In this document: in pieces, positions 32,951-63,736 of the stretch
How the letters are laid out: the number at the start of each line of letters is the position of its first letter
Numbering within the stretch: position 1 is the first letter of the stretch
Assembly (NCBI RefSeq): GCF_000377785.1
Contig: NZ_KB898731.1
Coordinates: 1 to 64,000, forward strand
DNA: 64,000 nt
Direction: 5' to 3'
Source of the DNA: Thioalkalivibrio sp. ALJ24
GTDB lineage: Bacteria; Pseudomonadota; Gammaproteobacteria; Ectothiorhodospirales; Ectothiorhodospiraceae
Translations under genes and position numbers: made by a program
Notes under the pieces: model-generated
Told to the model about the DNA's origin: nothing
Databases searched by the model: none
The model's input: the letters and a program-made list of their open reading frames with translations, nothing else

Positions 32951-33047
<97 letters not shown>

Positions 33048-33252
33048 GATACGGACCACCATAACGCTGTGAGCCGCACGAACCATCGACGCGCGACCGA
33101 ACCCGAAAGGATCGGGGTTTCGGGCACGCGCGTCAACCACGCCCCGGAACCGGTCTTGTGCCACGCGCCGGCGGCGCACACCACCGCGGAGCCTCGCCAC
33201 GCCGCGTCCGCAGCGGTAGAATCGGGCGACTCAGCAGCGTCCCGGGACGCCC
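33048..33252. other. Intergenic region between the SRP RNA gene and the diguanylate cyclase gene
   Basis: Divergent promoter space of about 200 bases. No gene is supported here. It should contain the promoter for the SRP RNA on the minus strand and for the PAS-GGDEF gene on the plus strand, but I could not pick convincing hexamers. Confidence 0.4.
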
Positions 33253-57390: not shown

Positions 57391-57450
57391 AATTGCTTTT
57401 GCCCGCCGGTTTCGGTCCAATACCGGGCTTTTCCCCCGAGCATCCTCCCC

Positions 57451-57963
57451 ATGCAGAAGAATCAGTACGATCGCGACGAACTCCTGGCCTGCGGCTACGG
57501 CAACATGTTCGGCCCGGGCAACGCCCAGCTGCCGGTCCCCAACATGTTGATGATGGACCGGGTCACGGAGATCAACAGCGATGGCGGCCAGTACGGCAAG
57601 GGCGAGATGCTCGCCGAACTGGACATCCACCCGGACCAGTGGTTCTTCGCCTGCCACTTCCCCGGCGACCCGGTGATGCCCGGCTGCCTGGGACTGGACG
57701 CGATGTGGCAGCTGGTCGGCTTCTATCTCGCCTGGTTGGGCAACCCCGGCCGCGGGCGCGCGCTGGGCGTGGGCGAGGTGAAGTTCACCGGCCAGGTGCT
57801 GCCGACCGCCGAACGGGTCACCTACCACGTGGAAATGAAACGGGTGATCTCGCGCAAGCTGGTGCTGGGCATCGGTGACGGCACAGTGCAGGTGGACGGT
57901 CGTACGATCTACGAAGCCACCGACCTGCGCGTCGGCCTGTTCACCTCCACCGAAAACTTCTGA
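57451..57963 (+). CDS. fabA: 3-hydroxydecanoyl-ACP dehydratase/isomerase
   Basis: FabA dehydrates 3-hydroxydecanoyl-ACP and isomerises the product to the cis-3 form, the entry to unsaturated fatty acids. The 170 residues hold the hot-dog fold signature [24 protein letters not shown], with catalytic His69 and Asp83. In E. coli-type bacteria FabB is needed to elongate the cis product, but fabB is not adjacent here. Its last 55 bases overlap the end of the convergent methyltransferase gene. Confidence 0.97.
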
Positions 57964-58781
57964 GGCAGCCCCAGCACGTCCCGGTGCCCGACCCGCAGGC
58001 GGCCCTCGCCCCGATCAATATGGGCGCGGCGCCGCTCGCCCCATTCCCGGAACGCCGCCGCCCGGCCAGGCTCGATCGCGGACGCCGCGGCCACCCAGCC
58101 ATCCATCAGGGCACTTGCCAGGCCCGCCCGTGACGCGTCGAGATCCCAGACCGCATCGGCCATCTCGACGGCGTAGCCATGGTCTTCCAGGCGTCGCGCC
58201 AGATATTCGCCGGCCCGCGGGCCCAGGGCCGGGCCGAACCCCTTGTCGGTGAGCTGGTGGCGATTGACCGCCGCGCGCAGCGCCGCATCCCCGTGGTCCG
58301 CGGGACTTGCCTCGATCCGGCCGTCGTAACTGAGCGCGAACAGCACCGCGGCCCCGCGCTCTGCACAGGCCGCCACCAGCCGGTCCAGCCAGTCCGCCGA
58401 GACCAGGTCCAGCAGCGCGGAGCCGGTCACCACCAGCGGCTCGCCCGGCGGCGGGTCCGGCAACGGCGGCGGCCCTGCGGCGAAGTCTTCCACCCGGCGT
58501 TCGCGCACGTATTCGCCACCCGCGCCCCGGCAGGCCGCCTCCAGCAGTTCCGCGTCGTGGTCCACCAGGGTCCAGTGCTGAGGTTCCGGCAGCCGCGGCG
58601 CCAGCCAGCGCAGGCCGGAACCCCGGCCGGCACCCAGATCGAACACGCGCAGGGGCGTCTGTGGCGTCGCCCGCACCTGCCGCGCCCAGGCGTCCAGGGC
58701 ATCGGCCAGGGCGGTCGAACGCGCCGCATGGTCCGCGGGCTCGCGCAGGCTCAGCCAGCCGGCATCGAAGTGCTCGCTCAC
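57909..58781 (-). CDS. Class I SAM-dependent methyltransferase
   Basis: A 290-residue protein with the SAM-binding motif [17 protein letters not shown] (47-62) and motif II-like [14 protein letters not shown] (about 70-83). Its acceptor is unknown. It begins at a GTG overlapping the glycosyltransferase stop (GTGA), the fourth gene of a coupled operon with an MDR dehydrogenase, a PTPS-like protein and a glycosyltransferase. This suggests methylation of a glycosylated or lipid-linked product, as inference. Its 3' end runs 55 bases into the convergent fabA. Confidence 0.85.
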
Positions 58782-59839
58782 GGCGCCAGTTCGCGCAGCG
58801 CGCGCTCCATCGCCTCCACCGACGCCGGCCAGTCGGACATGCGCCGCGCGGCCTCGCGGCCGGCCATGCCGGCGGCCCGCCGCGCCTGCGGGTCGTCCAG
58901 GAAACGCGCCAGTGCCTCGCGCAGGGCCCGGATGTCACCCGGCGGAACCCGCTCCCCGGCGGCGGCCGGAACGGTGTACGGGATCGCCCCGCCGGTGGTC
59001 GTGACCACCGGCAGGCCGCGCGCCATGGCCTCGGTGAACACCATGCCGAAGCCCTCGTATTCGCTGGGCAGCACGAACAGCGAAGCGGCGTCGTACAGCA
59101 CCGCCAGATGCGCCTCCGAGCAGGCCCCGGTGATGCTGACCCGGTCCTGCAGACTGCCCTCTTCGACCTGGCGGTGCAGGCCCTGCACGAACGTCGGGTC
59201 ACGGTCCGCCGGCCCCGCGAGCACCAGATGCCAGGGCCGGTCGGTGAGCCCCGCCAGCGCCGCGAGCAGATGCTGCTGGCCCTTGCGCGGGATCAATGCC
59301 CCCACCGCGAGCAGCCCGGGCGGCGCACCCGGGGCCGGCCCGGATGCCACGGCATGCCGCTCCACCCCCGGCGGGACCACCCGCAGGCGCGCGGACTCGA
59401 CACCCCACCCGGCGAGCACCTCGGAGGTGAACGCACTGGTGGTGACGATGCCCTCGGCGGCCGCCAGTCCGGCGTGTTCCAACGCCAGCAGTTCGCGGCG
59501 GCGCCGGGCATCCAGACCGGTCTCCTCGCCGAGCGGGTGATGGACCAGCGCGATCAGGCGCAGGCGCCGGGCATGGCGCTGCAGGACCTCCGGGAAGGCC
59601 CCGCCGGCCAGACCGTCCACCAGCACTCGCTGACCGTCCGGCGCGGCTGCGAGCGCCGCTTCCAGCGCATGCTCCGCATCCCCCGAGGGCCCGGGGAAGT
59701 CCCCTTCCAGTTCATCCACCGCCAGCGACCAGCCCCGCGCGCGCAGGCCGGCGACCATCTGCGCGTCATAGCGGTACCCGCCCGTAGGCTGATCCAGCGA
59801 CCCCGGCACCAGCAGGCGCAGGTCCGCGGCCTGATTCAA
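58778..59839 (-). CDS. Glycosyltransferase family 4-type protein
   Basis: A 353-residue GT-B glycosyltransferase. The second half carries the GT4 nucleotide-sugar signature [20 protein letters not shown] with its ExxGxxxxE-like pattern, then [14 protein letters not shown] and GERVPPGD. The first half has the GxL/D-binding glycine region near [18 protein letters not shown], expected for an acceptor domain. The start is a TTG overlapping the PTPS-like stop (TTGA), with GAGG 7 bases upstream. Donor and acceptor are unknown. Confidence 0.88.
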
Positions 59840-60234
59840 GGAGCGGCCTCATAGGAGGCCCAGGCGACGTGGGATTCGTGCAGGGTCACGCAGACCGCGT
59901 CCAGACCCCGCGCAGAGTCACCCAGGCGGCCGTCATGGATGGCATCGCTGATGCGTGCATGGATGGCGCGCGCGAGGAACTCCGTAGTGGTGTTGTGTCC
60001 CTCGAACTCCGGCCGGTCGTCCAGATTCTGGTAGTTCAGCTCGCCGAGGATCCCGCGCAGCACCTCCCCGGCACGGCCGATGTCGACCACCAGACCGTCG
60101 GCATCCAGCTCGCGCCGCCGGAAGGTCGCGTCCACCACGTAGGTGGCGCCGTGCAGGTTCTGTGCGGGGCCAAAAACCTCTCCGGCAAAACTGTGGGCGA
60201 TCATGAAATGATCACGGACATTGAGGCTGTACAT
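59836..60234 (-). CDS. Divergent 6-pyruvoyl-tetrahydropterin synthase-like protein (T-fold)
   Basis: A 132-residue T-fold protein of the PTPS/QueD superfamily: [57 protein letters not shown] and [13 protein letters not shown]. Compared with QueD, His14 and His28 remain but the third zinc ligand is Ala30 (HGA instead of HGH), the catalytic Cys before the motif is missing, and the Asp-His pair (LDHxxLN) reads LNYQNLDD. Glu119 is retained. Activity on the usual dihydroneopterin triphosphate is therefore doubtful. It is 29 bases after the dehydrogenase gene and coupled to the glycosyltransferase. Confidence 0.85.
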
Positions 60235-60263
60235 GCTCGGCTTTCTCCATTCGCAGTGATGGA

Positions 60264-61268
60264 TCAGACCCACACCGGGTCGGGATCCGGGTAGCGGATG
60301 CGATGACAGAGGGTGGTCGCGGCGGCCGGCCCGGCCACCCGCGGCATCACCCGGGGCAGATCCTCGAAGGCGTCCTCGCCACTGATCAGCACGTCCAGCA
60401 CGGGATCGGCCAGCAGCTCCAGGGCCAGCGCCAGGCGCCGGCGATGGTCCCAGCGCGCGGCCCGCGACGGCGGGATACGGCCAACCTGGCTGCTGCGCAG
60501 CTCCAGGCGCCGCGAATGGAAGCCCTCGCCCAGCGGCAGGCTCACGGCGCCGTCGCCGTACCAGCTGCCCTCCACCACCCGCGCCTCGGTGCCCGCCAGC
60601 TCCAGCGCCTGCACCAGGCCATCGCCATGGCCGCTGCAGTGGATCACCACGTCGCACGAAGCCGGCCCCGGCCGCTCGCGCGCGGCGGCCGGGGCATGCA
60701 GCGCGAGGCCCAGGGCCCGGGCCGGTTCGGCGCGCGCGGGTTCGGGGTCGATCAGTGCTACCCGCGTGCCCGGGATCGCGCGGACCAGCCACGCGCACAG
60801 CAACCCGACCACGCCCGCGCCGATCACCGCGACCCGGTCACCGGGGCCCACCCCGGCATCCCACACGGTGTTCACCGCCGTTTCCATGTTGGCCGCCAGC
60901 ACCGCACGGGTGTCGGGCACCGCGTCGGGGATCGGCACCAGCATGGACTCGGGGGCGTTGTAGCGATCCTGATGCGGATGCAGACAGAAGACCCGTTCCC
61001 CGGCGCGCGTTCCGCCTTCCACCACCCCCACGCTGATGTAGCCGTATTTCACCGGCGCCGGGAACTCCCCTTCCTGCAGCGGGGCCCGCATCGCGGCGTA
61101 CTGGTCCGGCGGTACCCGACCGCGGAACACCAGCGATTCGGTCCCGCGCGAGATCGCGCCATAACGCGCCCGTACGCGGCATTCGCCGGGGCCCGGCGGC
61201 GCCAGCCGGGTGGCGCGGATCTCGCCTTCTCCGGGGGCCGTGATCCAGAAGGCACGGGCCTGATTCAT
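60264..61268 (-). CDS. Zinc-type alcohol dehydrogenase-like protein (MDR superfamily)
   Basis: A 334-residue medium-chain dehydrogenase/reductase fold protein with an N-terminal GroES-like domain ([17 protein letters not shown]) and a Rossmann domain ([17 protein letters not shown], 147-163). The catalytic zinc ligands of alcohol dehydrogenases (Cys in the GroES domain, GHE motif) are absent. The GISxGTE-like segment is also seen in BchC-type bacteriochlorophyllide dehydrogenases. It probably oxidises or reduces a hydroxyl or keto group in a non-zinc manner. First gene of the coupled operon on the minus strand. Upstream space (61269-61381) is shared with the divergent gene. Confidence 0.85.
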
Positions 61269-61381
61269 GCGGGTTCTCGCAACGTTCGGGACACGGGTTC
61301 ATGCTCGCGGGTTATCCAAGGCCCGCAGTGTAGCCGAGTCGCCACCGTCCACCGCAATCCCGACCCCGGAGGCCGCCACGG

Positions 61382-62155
61382 ATGCCCCTTTCCGCCGTTC
61401 TGCGTCGCCCGCTGCACCCCGCCGACCTGATCCTCGGCGGGGTGCTGGCGCTGGCTGTCGCCGGCGGCATCGTGCTGCTGACCCCGGCGGGTCCGGTCCT
61501 TCCGCTGGCCACACTGGCGCTGTGGGGACTGCTGGTGGCGCTGGTGGCCGGCAGTGCCGGCCGCAGGGGAGGACTGCAGTCCATCCCCGGACCGGGCAAC
61601 CGGGTCACCCTGCTGCGCGCGGCCCTGACCGCCCCGGTCGGCAGCGCGGCCCTGCTCGCACCGGTCCCCGGCGCGCTCGCCCACGAAAGCCTGGCGCTGT
61701 GGGTCACCGGTCTCGCCCTGCTGGTGCTGCTGCTGGACGGACTGGACGGGGCGGTGGCGCGGCGCAGCGGGACCACCTCGGCCTTCGGCGCGCGCTTCGA
61801 CATGGAACTGGATGCGGCCCTGATCCTCGCGCTGTCGGTGCTCGCCTGGCAGCCGGGGCCGGCCGGCCCCTGGGTGCTGCTGATCGGGGCGATGCGCTAT
61901 CTGTTCGTGCTGGCCGGCAGGCGGCTGCCCTGGCTGCGCGCGGAACTGCCGCCCAGTCGGCGCCGTCAGGCGGTCTGCGTGCTGCAGACCCCGGCGCTGC
62001 TGATCGCCCTGGCCCCGCCGGTGCCCACGGGGCCGGCCATCGCTGCGCCGACACTCGCCCTGGCCGCGCTGACGGTTTCCTTCGCCGTGGATATCGTCTA
62101 TCTGTATCGGGGAAGACCCGCGTCGGATTCACCCCTCCCGGAGGACACGTCATGA
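61382..62155 (+). CDS. CDP-alcohol phosphatidyltransferase family protein
   Basis: A 257-residue membrane protein with about eight hydrophobic segments and the CDP-alcohol phosphotransferase motif at positions 122-144: Asp122-Gly123, Ala126-Arg127, Gly136, Asp140 and Asp144 in perfect register (DG-x2-AR-x8-G-x3-D-x3-D). It should transfer a phospho-alcohol headgroup from a CDP-activated donor. Donor and acceptor are not evident. GGAGG lies 9 bases before the ATG. It is divergent from the dehydrogenase-PTPS-glycosyltransferase-methyltransferase operon and overlaps the YceI gene by four bases. Confidence 0.9.
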   Translation: MPLSAVLRRPLHPADLILGGVLALAVAGGIVLLTPAGPVLPLATLALWGLLVALVAGSAGRRGGLQSIPGPGNRVTLLRAALTAPVGSAALLAPVPGALAHESLALWVTGLALLVLLLDGLDGAVARRSGTTSAFGARFDMELDAALILALSVLAWQPGPAGPWVLLIGAMRYLFVLAGRRLPWLRAELPPSRRRQAVCVLQTPALLIALAPPVPTGPAIAAPTLALAALTVSFAVDIVYLYRGRPASDSPLPEDTS

Positions 62156-62763
62156 AGAACCGATTCCGCACCCTGGCCACCACCGCCCTTATGGGACTTG
62201 CATGGATGCTGCCAGCCGGCGCCGCGGCCATGGACGAATGGGAGATCGACACCGAGCACTTCGCGGTCGGGTTTATGGTCGATCACGCCGGATACGCGCG
62301 AGTGCTGGGGATGTTTCTCGAGGCCGAAGGCGCCTTCATGTTCGACCCGGATACCGGCGAGCTGGGGGAGGGCCATTTCGTGGTGCAGACCGACAGCGTG
62401 TTCACCAACCACGAGGAACGCGACGACCATCTGCGTAACGAGGACTTCCTCGACGTGGAAAACTACCCCGAGATGCGTTTTACCGCGACGGACTACGAGC
62501 CCACCGGCGAGGACAGCGGGCAACTGACCGGTGATCTCGAACTGCTGGGCGAAACCCGGCCAATCACTCTGGACGTGACCATCAACAAGGTCGGACGCTA
62601 CCCGTTCCCGCTGGGCGGCGTCTTCTCGCGTCCTTACGTACTGGGCGCCTCGATGCGCGGGGAATTCCAGCGCAGTGACTTCGGCATGGACTACGGGCTG
62701 ATCCGCGACATCGTGGGGGACACGGTGGAACTGATCATCGAATTCGAGGCGCAGCGTCAGTAG
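62152..62763 (+). CDS. YceI-family periplasmic lipid-binding protein
   Basis: A 203-residue protein with a signal peptide (RTLATTALMGLAWMLPAGAAA, cleavage near residue 25) and the YceI lipocalin-like barrel: WEIDTEHFAVGFMVDHAGYARVLGMF, the end of strand two FVVQTDSVFTNHEERDDHLRNEDFLDVENYPEMRFT, and DLELLGETRPITLDV. YceI proteins bind polyisoprenoid or fatty acyl chains in the periplasm. ATG 62152 has GGAGG 7 bases upstream, and the coupling to the phosphatidyltransferase suggests a shared lipid-related role. Confidence 0.93.
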   Translation: MKNRFRTLATTALMGLAWMLPAGAAAMDEWEIDTEHFAVGFMVDHAGYARVLGMFLEAEGAFMFDPDTGELGEGHFVVQTDSVFTNHEERDDHLRNEDFLDVENYPEMRFTATDYEPTGEDSGQLTGDLELLGETRPITLDVTINKVGRYPFPLGGVFSRPYVLGASMRGEFQRSDFGMDYGLIRDIVGDTVELIIEFEAQRQ

Positions 62764-62804
62764 CCGCGCCGGGAAGCCGGGGACCGGGGCCCCCGGCCCT
62801 GCCT

Positions 62805-63041
62805 TCAGGCCGTGGTGTTGACCAGCGTCCCGACGTTGTCGGGCAGCGCCTCGGCCGCACCGGCCGCCGCCTCCACGCTGGCACCGGCCCCCGCGTTCAC
62901 GTCGGCCACGCCCTCGATCAGCTGCGTCACCGCAGACCCTTCGGCTTCCATGGCACGGTTCATCACCGCGATGTCCTTCTGCTGCATCAGGCTGGCCTGC
63001 TGCATCTGCACGGATTGAGAAACCGCTGCGTTGACATCCAT
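62805..63041 (-). CDS. YjfB-like small protein
   Basis: A 78-residue protein beginning MDVNAAVSQSVQMQQASLMQQ, the pattern of the YjfB family (putative motility-associated proteins, function unknown). The rest is Ala/Gly/Val-rich and helical, without Cys. AAGGAGG precedes ATG 63041, which is preferred to ATG 63062. Convergent with the YceI gene, with a GC-rich spacer of about 40 bases between them. Confidence 0.85.
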   Translation of the reverse strand: MDVNAAVSQSVQMQQASLMQQKDIAVMNRAMEAEGSAVTQLIEGVADVNAGAGASVEAAAGAAEALPDNVGTLVNTTA

Positions 63042-63115
63042 GGGTACCTCCTTGACGTTCACAGACGCTTCCGAATGTATGAACCGTCTGCGCCGGGGCT
63101 AACGGCAGGCTGCAG

Positions 63116-63736
63116 TCAGGCTTTAGGGTCCGAGGGAAGATTTTTTCGCACCACCGACGGGCGGGCGGTAAAACGCCGCATCACGCCCCGTGCCACCCGG
63201 TCATGCGGGTCGATGGCAAACCCCGCGGCCTCCACCGCCGCCTCGGTGTCGCGATTCGGATGGCAGCCGCCCGCGATGCAGGTCCAGGCCGGCTGCACCC
63301 GATCCTGCAGGCGCGCCAGGGTCGGACGCGTGTGCCGCACGTGTTCCAGCATGCGCAGCTCGCCCCCGGTATCCAGCACCCGCCGAACCTCGCCCAGCGC
63401 CCGCGGCGGGTCCTGCACCGAACAGAACACCAGCCCTGAAACCACCACGTCGAATCGCCCGTCGTCGAAGGGCAGGGCCTCCGCCCGGGCGATCACCAGC
63501 GGCACCTCGGGGGCACGCCAGCGTGCCCGGCGCGCGGCCGCCGGGTCGGGCTCGATGGCCACCACCTGCGCCGGAGATAAATACAGGGGAAGGTTACGAC
63601 CCGTGCCGCAACCCACCTCCAGGATCCGGCCATGCACGCCGTCCAGCAGGCGCTCCCGCCAGCGGCGCAGACCGAGCAGCTCGGCCACCCGCATGAAGCC
63701 ATCATAAAGCCAGGGAATCTGTTCCAGTCCGCGCAT
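63116..63736 (-). CDS. Class I SAM-dependent methyltransferase (UbiE-like fold)
   Basis: A 206-residue methyltransferase with motif I ILEVGCGTGRNLPLY (38-52), motif II region VVAIEPDPAAARRA, motif III EALPFDDGRFDVVVSGLVFCSV and LGEVRRVLDTGGELRMLEHVRH. The central part resembles the Methyltransf_11/UbiE group, and the short aromatic/basic C-terminus RVARGVMRRFTARPSV may form a substrate cap. The acceptor is unknown. ATG 63736 with AGG upstream is chosen over the upstream in-frame ATG at 63874. Confidence 0.88.
   Translation of the reverse strand: MRGLEQIPWLYDGFMRVAELLGLRRWRERLLDGVHGRILEVGCGTGRNLPLYLSPAQVVAIEPDPAAARRARWRAPEVPLVIARAEALPFDDGRFDVVVSGLVFCSVQDPPRALGEVRRVLDTGGELRMLEHVRHTRPTLARLQDRVQPAWTCIAGGCHPNRDTEAAVEAAGFAIDPHDRVARGVMRRFTARPSVVRKNLPSDPKA

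Follow-up and report, generated by a model that had tools for sequence, protein, structure and literature searches.

Gene organization of the cassette

The gene cassette described here lies in a 64,000-nucleotide stretch of DNA from Thioalkalivibrio sp. ALJ24 (positions 1 to 64,000 of contig NZ_KB898731.1; referred to as the window). On the minus strand, an operon consists of genes for an MDR-family oxidoreductase (MDR; 60264..61268; the first gene), a T-fold protein of the PTPS-IV subfamily (59836..60234), a GT4 glycosyltransferase (GT; 58778..59839, with a TTG start), and a class I S-adenosylmethionine-dependent methyltransferase (MT; 57909..58781; the final gene). The GT gene overlaps the PTPS-IV and MT genes by 4 bases each, and a gap of 29 bases separates the PTPS-IV and MDR genes. 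Across an intergenic space of 113 bases (61269..61381), a divergent plus-strand unit encodes a CDP-alcohol phosphatidyltransferase (CDP-AP; 61382..62155) and a YceI-like protein (62152..62763). The original prediction, made from the sequence alone, described this coupling and this divergence exactly; its gene positions were also correct, but the YceI gene runs beyond the end that it assigned to the region (62155), to 62763.

The protein families were recognizable, as had been claimed, but MDR was weak by Pfam and the MT of the window had no Pfam match. The best NCBIfam score of MDR was obtained with BchC, below the cut-off. In comparison with the motif of the classical zinc-dependent MDR alcohol dehydrogenases, the usual Cys and His positions were read by eye as Ser and Tyr (SRGTE and KYGY), with at least 95% conservation in 86 sequences. 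Methyltransf_25 was matched by 32 of the 36 MT family members scanned, and the predicted structure of MT (pLDDT 94.2; 36 alignment rows, the window protein and 35 of 79 references) had the class I methyltransferase fold, its structural neighbors being generic class I methyltransferases only. GT weakly matched MshA- and PimB-type structures.

Conservation of the gene set

A scan of genome contigs with the PTPS-IV protein found at least 492 relatives (at least 594 pattern matches), and the best 80 loci were compared; this sample was picked by PTPS similarity and is uninformative on how common the gene set is. Among the matches listed, the closest loci were labelled Thioalkalivibrio, and others Halomonas, Variovorax, Methyloversatilis, Micromonospora, Amycolatopsis, Actinomadura, Gemmatimonadota, and Acidobacteria. 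The record labels spanned Pseudomonadota, Actinomycetota, Gemmatimonadota, and Acidobacteria, and diverged forms were found on haloarchaeal plasmids. MDR, PTPS-IV, and GT stood in the same order in all 80 loci, and MT directly followed GT in 75, the five misses being loci in which the PTPS gene is at most 1.2 kb away from a contig end. CDP-AP was found in 71 loci (seven of the nine misses have a left flank of at most 4.3 kb), and was divergent from MDR at a distance of at most 600 bases in 64 of these 71. YceI was present in 22 of the 80 loci (21 by a seeded count at 1e-10).

Recurrent neighbors were collected by clustering all open reading frames of the 80 loci, followed by the seeded count, and were identified by Pfam and NCBIfam: RibD_C (57 loci), a flippase-like protein (56), GTP cyclohydrolase II (GCHII; 47), creatininase (41), "sulfatase" (31), FkbM methyltransferase (23), OpgH (14), and cytochrome b (8). 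For the 45 loci flanked by 9 kb or more on each side, the numbers were CDP-AP 43, RibD_C 37, flippase 36, GCHII 31, creatininase 29, sulfatase 21, and FkbM 17. The five-gene grouping of the original prediction was coupled as described, but the set comprises roughly twice as many genes, with GCHII, RibD_C, and creatininase among the additions; CDP-AP belongs to its core and YceI is an optional partner.

Several single-frame fusions, each with both Pfam domains, join members of the set: GCHII-RibD_C (L106), creatininase-RibD_C (L012 and L024, both metagenome-assembled contigs), and GT-MT (L024). The fusions link GTP ring opening, reduction, and creatininase in one route. In a 1.1-Mb genome (G142; 99% complete), a single row at C1:296000-312000 (L098; 28% G+C in this stretch) contains YceI, CDP-AP, MDR, PTPS-IV, GT, MT, flippase, and RibD_C together. 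Among 28 plasmid records with a PTPS match, 14 regions were opened, and MDR was beside PTPS-IV in 11.

Co-distribution was analyzed in an even sample of 229 genomes of the class, of which 7 contained PTPS-IV, 10 MDR, 8 CDP-AP, 7 creatininase, and 5 the "sulfatase" (referred to as the transferase; see below). MDR and CDP-AP were present in all seven PTPS-IV genomes, and the three MDR genomes without a PTPS match hold diverged sets: CDP-AP, RibD_C, MDR, PTPS-IV, GT, and FkbM in L105; the GCHII-RibD_C fusion, MDR, PTPS-IV, and GT on one strand in L106; and MDR, RibD_C, and GCHII in L107, whose 7.9-kb contig showed no PTPS. The transferase occurred in five of the seven PTPS-IV genomes and in none of the 222 others; its gene was off the cassette contig in three genomes, on the MDR/CDP-AP contig in G068, and on the window's contig in the genome of the window (G000). 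Fisher values were 4e-9 (transferase), 2e-11 (MDR), 1e-12 (CDP-AP), and 1e-5 (creatininase), with genomes treated as independent and two positives sharing a genus. Mirror-tree correlations (21 pairs, r 0.45-0.90; for each pair, none of 200 permutations reached the observed value) were calculated without a species-tree control and give minor support. Conservation alignments excluded proteins with less than 60% or more than 200% of the reference length and those with long X runs (MDR 86, GT 83, MT 80, CDP-AP 75, RibD_C 62, GCHII 40, creatininase 40, and transferase 33 sequences).

The genes were not scattered independently, and independent scattering was the outcome that would have spoken against the original prediction, though the set is split in the window's own genome and lone PTPS-IV genes exist. 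Chance adjacency was ruled out by the locus order counts together with the co-distribution, and we regard it as practically certain that the set represents a real, conserved pathway.

The PTPS-IV protein

The PTPS-IV protein of the window contained the PF01242 T-fold domain (89.3 bits; cut-off, 22.4), and scored 41.5 bits with the QueD model (TIGR03367), below its cut-off of 89.25. The FGPAQ signature was found at residues 21-25, its columns being F in 87, G in 88, P in 87, A in 87, and Q in 85 of 88 sequences (80 loci, 7 plasmid regions, and the window), which were compared with the genome's own QueD. By the residue roles of PTPS enzymes, the catalytic Cys and the third zinc His were both lost (each to Ala in 87 of 88), and the Asp and His of the Asp-His pair were kept in 2 and 0 sequences, respectively; two zinc His and the pterin-anchoring Glu, which grips the 2-amino-4-oxo edge, were kept in all 88. 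The diverged proteins of L096, L105, and L106 keep H-x-H rather than HGA at the zinc site (L096 as aligned, L105 and L106 by eye), and may be nearer the ancestral PTPS-IV form.

The only PDB match at 1e-3 was 3D7J (2e-53), the Streptomyces coelicolor protein SCO6650; this structure reportedly contains no zinc and has a pterin-like binding site, and its protein is said to lack PTPS activity. The subfamily, one structure, and part of the neighborhood are already known. PTPS-IV is described as a COG0720 subfamily with FGPAQ, and GCHII (PF00925, named GTP cyclohydrolase I/FolE2 in that paper) and RibD_C (PF01872) are neighbors of its cluster-node 62 (561 sequences; PMC5445326); an involvement in F420 is remarked as unpublished (PMC5041015). 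Loss of the PTPS/QueD catalytic residues and membership in PTPS-IV indicate that the label "pterin synthase" would mislead; the "divergent PTPS-like protein" of the original prediction is a member of a known subfamily.

Partner genes in the genome of the window

The genome G000 (2.81 Mb, 20 contigs) has homologs of five of the six extra genes, away from the cassette. On contig C1, at 332-334 kb, a reductase-only RibD_C gene (L088:8011-8814, minus strand) is divergent from a satellite GCHII gene (L088:8920-10062, plus strand); creatininase and FkbM genes lie at 362-364 kb (L089), and the transferase gene is found at C8:98233-99801, on the window's contig and 34 kb past the window. The latter was missed by PF00884 and detected with the family alignment A4, Pfam alone being misleading here. 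The riboflavin genes form a separate group with a full RibD; the satellite RibD_C protein has no deaminase domain, and so differs from riboflavin RibD, in which deaminase and reductase are combined. The creatininase scored below the cut-offs of ArfB (NF033501; 19.8 bits against 180) and of MftE, the mycofactocin creatininase (TIGR03964; 118.5 bits against 172).

The housekeeping RibBA (L090:6631-7845; C1, approximately 219.6-220.8 kb) matched DHBP synthase strongly, but the zinc-cysteine motif is missing from its GCHII domain; G000 has two GCHII matches, and the motif is present only in the satellite copy at C1:333 kb. The idea of a private second GCHII in G000 was dropped because RibBA lacks the motif. 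Weak flippase matches on the strand opposite to RibD_C were also dropped.

CDP-AP and the putative headgroup transferase

The CDP-AP of the window carries in full the family motif D(x)2DG(x)2AR(x)8G(x)3D(x)3D, which was conserved in the 75 aligned sequences, with hydrophobic segments present. The "sulfatase" has an N-terminal transmembrane region and an extracytoplasmic domain of the alkaline phosphatase (AP) superfamily, as in headgroup transferases of the LtaS/EptA class, and it models as a phospholipid-headgroup transferase fold of this class (22 of 32 references as alignment rows). Residues E265, S312, D492, and H493, which may correspond to the catalytic Glu, Ser/Thr, and Asp-His of LtaS, were invariant in 22 sequences.

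Relatives of the transferase were found in 28 plasmid records, nine of which are also among the 28 PTPS records, and seven regions were opened. In one from Streptomyces (L122), the transferase is alone; region L115 of that plasmid contains the cassette. The others are six of 18 Rhodobacterales records (L120, L121, and L123-L126), and in all six CDP-AP directly precedes the transferase (with a 4-base overlap in five) and an ABC importer (binding protein, ATPase, and permease) is nearby: downstream in five regions, and on the opposite side in L125, beyond cytochrome b and MdoH. These regions also contain GT4 (5), flippase (4), cytochrome b (5), MdoH (2), and YceI (1). CDP-AP and GT4 of L120 and L121 were 39-54% identical to those of the window over the aligned parts. 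In the 13 kb analyzed for L120 and L121, a search at 1e-3 revealed none of PTPS, MDR, RibD_C, GCHII, and creatininase, and in the other four regions no synthesis gene was seen by annotation. The binding protein of L120 and L121 is NMT1/THI5-like, a type that includes pyrimidine and riboflavin importers, and the permeases gave sub-threshold scores with SaoP, SsuC, and nitrate/taurine permeases. The occurrence of CDP-AP, transferase, and importer in these regions without synthesis genes is most simply explained if import can substitute for synthesis; one half of the gene set would then produce a small molecule that the other half attaches to a lipid.

Other features of the window and related loci

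Neither a sigma-70-like promoter nor a terminator pattern was found at 57400-63200, and no promoter motif shared by MDR and CDP-AP was seen in a six-sequence alignment, which had approximate ends and was little informative. No riboswitch near these genes was detected at Rfam gathering thresholds (window, L088, L089, L090, L094, L106, L109, L120, and L121). A cobalamin riboswitch at L109:1288-1538 (minus strand) is located 6.7 kb from the transferase gene of G000. At gathering thresholds, Rfam matched a single feature of the window, a bacterial small signal recognition particle RNA (32955-33051, minus strand; 66 bits). Recent acquisition as foreign DNA was rejected, the G+C of the cassette (0.70-0.72) falling inside the range of the window (0.63-0.72). 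Adjoining YceI, a small YjfB-like putative motility protein is encoded at 62805-63062 (minus strand; PF14070, below cut-off), and a second class I methyltransferase at 63116-63736 (minus strand; several models scored below their cut-offs); the latter also occurs close to the cassette of three Thioalkalivibrio loci (L006-L008).

Proposed pathway and alternatives

GCHII yields 2,5-diamino-6-(5-phosphoribosylamino)pyrimidin-4-one, and RibD_C enzymes reduce the ribose of this compound to ribityl. In a first, headgroup-making module, GCHII would open GTP to this compound, and the stand-alone RibD_C would convert the ribose to a ribityl-5-phosphate chain with the 2-amino-4-oxo ring edge intact; because the satellite RibD_C lacks a deaminase domain, the 2-amino group is expected to stay, and this is the edge that the kept Glu of PTPS-IV would recognize. 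A start with GTP and RibD_C reduction is very probable. Creatininase, MDR, and PTPS-IV may then tailor the reduced compound, and MT and FkbM may methylate it. In the second module, the loader, GT4 would add a sugar, CDP-AP would join an alcohol or alditol phosphate to CDP-diacylglycerol, the flippase-like protein would turn the lipid outward, and the LtaS/EptA-class transferase would pass the phospho-headgroup on to an acceptor outside the cytoplasm, which in some lineages may be osmoregulated periplasmic glucans. The alditol phosphates accepted by PgsA- and PIP-synthase-type CDP-APs are similar to ribityl 5-phosphate. No nucleotidyltransferase was recognized by eye among the recurrent clusters (no profile search was made), which would favor CDP-diacylglycerol over a CDP-alcohol as the putative donor.

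This scheme as a whole, in which a GTP-derived, methylated, and often glycosylated headgroup is loaded on a phospholipid, flipped, and handed on, is our preferred reading, held with somewhat less than even confidence as to substrates, step order, and lipid product. The guess of an unusual phospholipid headgroup in the original prediction was strengthened by the recurrent flippase-like protein and the LtaS-class transferase, but its lipid product stays conjectural. More tentatively still, the pathway could produce a new class of membrane lipid, with a GTP-derived ribityl-diaminopyrimidine or pterin-like headgroup that is methylated, in most cases glycosylated, turned outward, and passed by the LtaS-like transferase to an extracytoplasmic glycan, and some Rhodobacterales might import the ring by an ABC transporter and keep the loader only.

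Several observations weigh against this scheme. On the synthetic side, the lack of the zinc-cysteine motif in RibBA indicates that the satellite GCHII probably also feeds riboflavin; RibD_C distances fitted the rest least (r 0.45-0.69); and creatininase (1e-20) was found in four of the seven PTPS-IV genomes, not found in three, and present in three genomes without PTPS-IV. On the lipid side, L022 and L041 have full flanks and no CDP-AP match; the substrate of CDP-AP is unreadable from its sequence, which weakly matched AIP synthase, PssA, PIP synthase, and PgsA; and the transferase was not found in two of the seven PTPS-IV genomes. In the model comparison, true sulfatases were just 2.6 Z units below LtaP, leaving hydrolysis as an alternative to transfer. 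The cassette-type flippase was not found in G000, whose sole PF03706 protein (C5:70977) matched no cassette seed, and PF03706 is unspecific (all seven PTPS-IV genomes, and also 7 of the 12 others searched). The negative result for synthesis genes in Rhodobacterales covers plasmid regions only, their chromosomes not having been searched.

Exceptions were also found on plasmids. PTPS-IV was alone in 3 of the 14 regions, all on Streptomyces plasmids, which indicates that it has been reused elsewhere, and L118 has MDR, PTPS-IV, MT, and RibD without GT, so that the sugar may be optional and glycosylation dispensable. The lone genes (L091:9001-9399, L113:8001-8399, and L116:8001-8426) lie on large linear plasmids with cupin and MBL-fold genes nearby in varying order; L118:5834-13605, from a Rhodobacteraceae plasmid, contains ribokinase, MDR, PTPS-IV, MT, RibD_C, and an mtnA-annotated gene.

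The most serious competitor, which we consider unlikely but credible, is that the methylated and often glycosylated ring made from GTP is exported as a soluble metabolite (a pigment, signal, metallophore, or cofactor), with CDP-AP, flippase, and the LtaS-like protein acting at the envelope during export or on a carrier lipid cleaved afterwards. CDP-AP, however, was steadier than GCHII or creatininase (all seven PTPS-IV genomes and 43 of the 45 full-flank loci), and stands with the transferase as a unit of its own in the six Rhodobacterales regions. The sole transporter cluster recognized by eye among the recurrent clusters was a generic ABC ATPase (c10; 14 of 80 loci, on both strands), exporters not having been profile-searched.

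Slightly less probable is that the modified polar lipid stays a lipid, the LtaS-like protein being a phosphodiesterase or headgroup recycler and no glycan being decorated. The two PTPS-IV genomes without a detected transferase and the occurrence of OpgH in just 14 of 80 loci are in line with this, whereas the confinement of the transferase, in the class sample, to PTPS-IV-positive genomes and its 4-base overlap with CDP-AP in five of the six Rhodobacterales regions argue against it.

A role of PTPS-IV and its neighbors in coenzyme F420 or another flavin-like redox cofactor is improbable. It would agree with the haloarchaeal members (L096 and L119), with the resemblance of GCHII, creatininase, and RibD_C to ArfA/B/C, with which archaea begin riboflavin and F420 synthesis, and with the unpublished remark mentioned above. 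CofD (PF01933), however, was not found in G000, listed as 100% complete, by a search that was positive in 10 of 14 control genomes (CofG and CofH were not searched), and on this ground an F420 role was rejected for the genome of the window; CDP-AP, flippase, and transferase are not known to have an F420 role either.

Finally, an ordinary QueD, folate, or biopterin enzyme beside unrelated housekeeping genes, as implied by the opened plasmid records, in which PTPS-IV genes carry the name 6-carboxytetrahydropterin synthase and a GO term for queuosine, is hardly conceivable and was rejected, given the separate QueD with CxxxHGH in the genome, the sub-threshold QueD score, the lost catalytic residues, and the invariant MDR-PTPS-GT order.

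Comparison with known systems

The approximately ten recurrent genes were found in several phyla and even in a 1.1-Mb genome. A literature search, mostly open-access with few subscription papers covered, found neither the whole gene set, nor its CDP-AP/transferase half, nor the importer variant. The original prediction had stated that no known pterin or lipid pathway combines its five activities, and no described pathway of the kind proposed here was found. To our knowledge, no characterized pathway joins the activities of the set. If the lipid reading is true, the decoration of the cell envelope draws on nucleotide chemistry, a connection not found in this literature search. The function of PTPS-IV, of which a structure is solved, gains a testable setting, its neighbors suggesting GTP as the precursor and a phospholipid as the destination. 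In the available text of the PTPS-IV papers (PMC5445326 and PMC5041015), CDP-AP, GT4, MT, MDR, flippase, and transferase are unmentioned as partners, and no product is given besides the F420 remark.

Four known systems share parts of the gene set. The toxoflavin cluster (ToxA-ToxE) also recruits GCHII and RibD-like enzymes outside riboflavin, together with a methyltransferase, but is not known to contain CDP-AP, flippase, GT4, or headgroup transferase. The archaeal ArfA/ArfB/ArfC and bacterial RibA/RibD routes share GTP ring opening, a creatininase-family hydrolase, and RibD_C-type reduction of ribose to ribityl; here, in contrast to the archaeal start, GCHII replaces ArfA, the creatininase is far below the ArfB cut-off, and RibD_C lacks the deaminase, a full RibD being located elsewhere. 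The start of phosphatidylinositol mannoside synthesis (PIP synthase and a PimA-type GT4) has the same succession of CDP-AP and GT4, and the weak matches of CDP-AP to AIP/PIP synthase and of GT to MshA-/PimB-type proteins fit this likeness, whereas ring-synthesis genes recur alongside in the present set. Phosphoglycerol decoration by LtaS, GacH, and OpgB and EptA-class transfer have in common with it the modelled membrane AP-superfamily fold, the adjacent CDP-AP (in Rhodobacterales), and OpgG/OpgH near some loci. The two transferase members tested, however, gave no NCBIfam match at 1e-3, and the models aligned at only 11-16% identity to the proteins of this group other than OpgB; the source of the headgroup would here be derived from GTP, and not be glycerol or ethanolamine.

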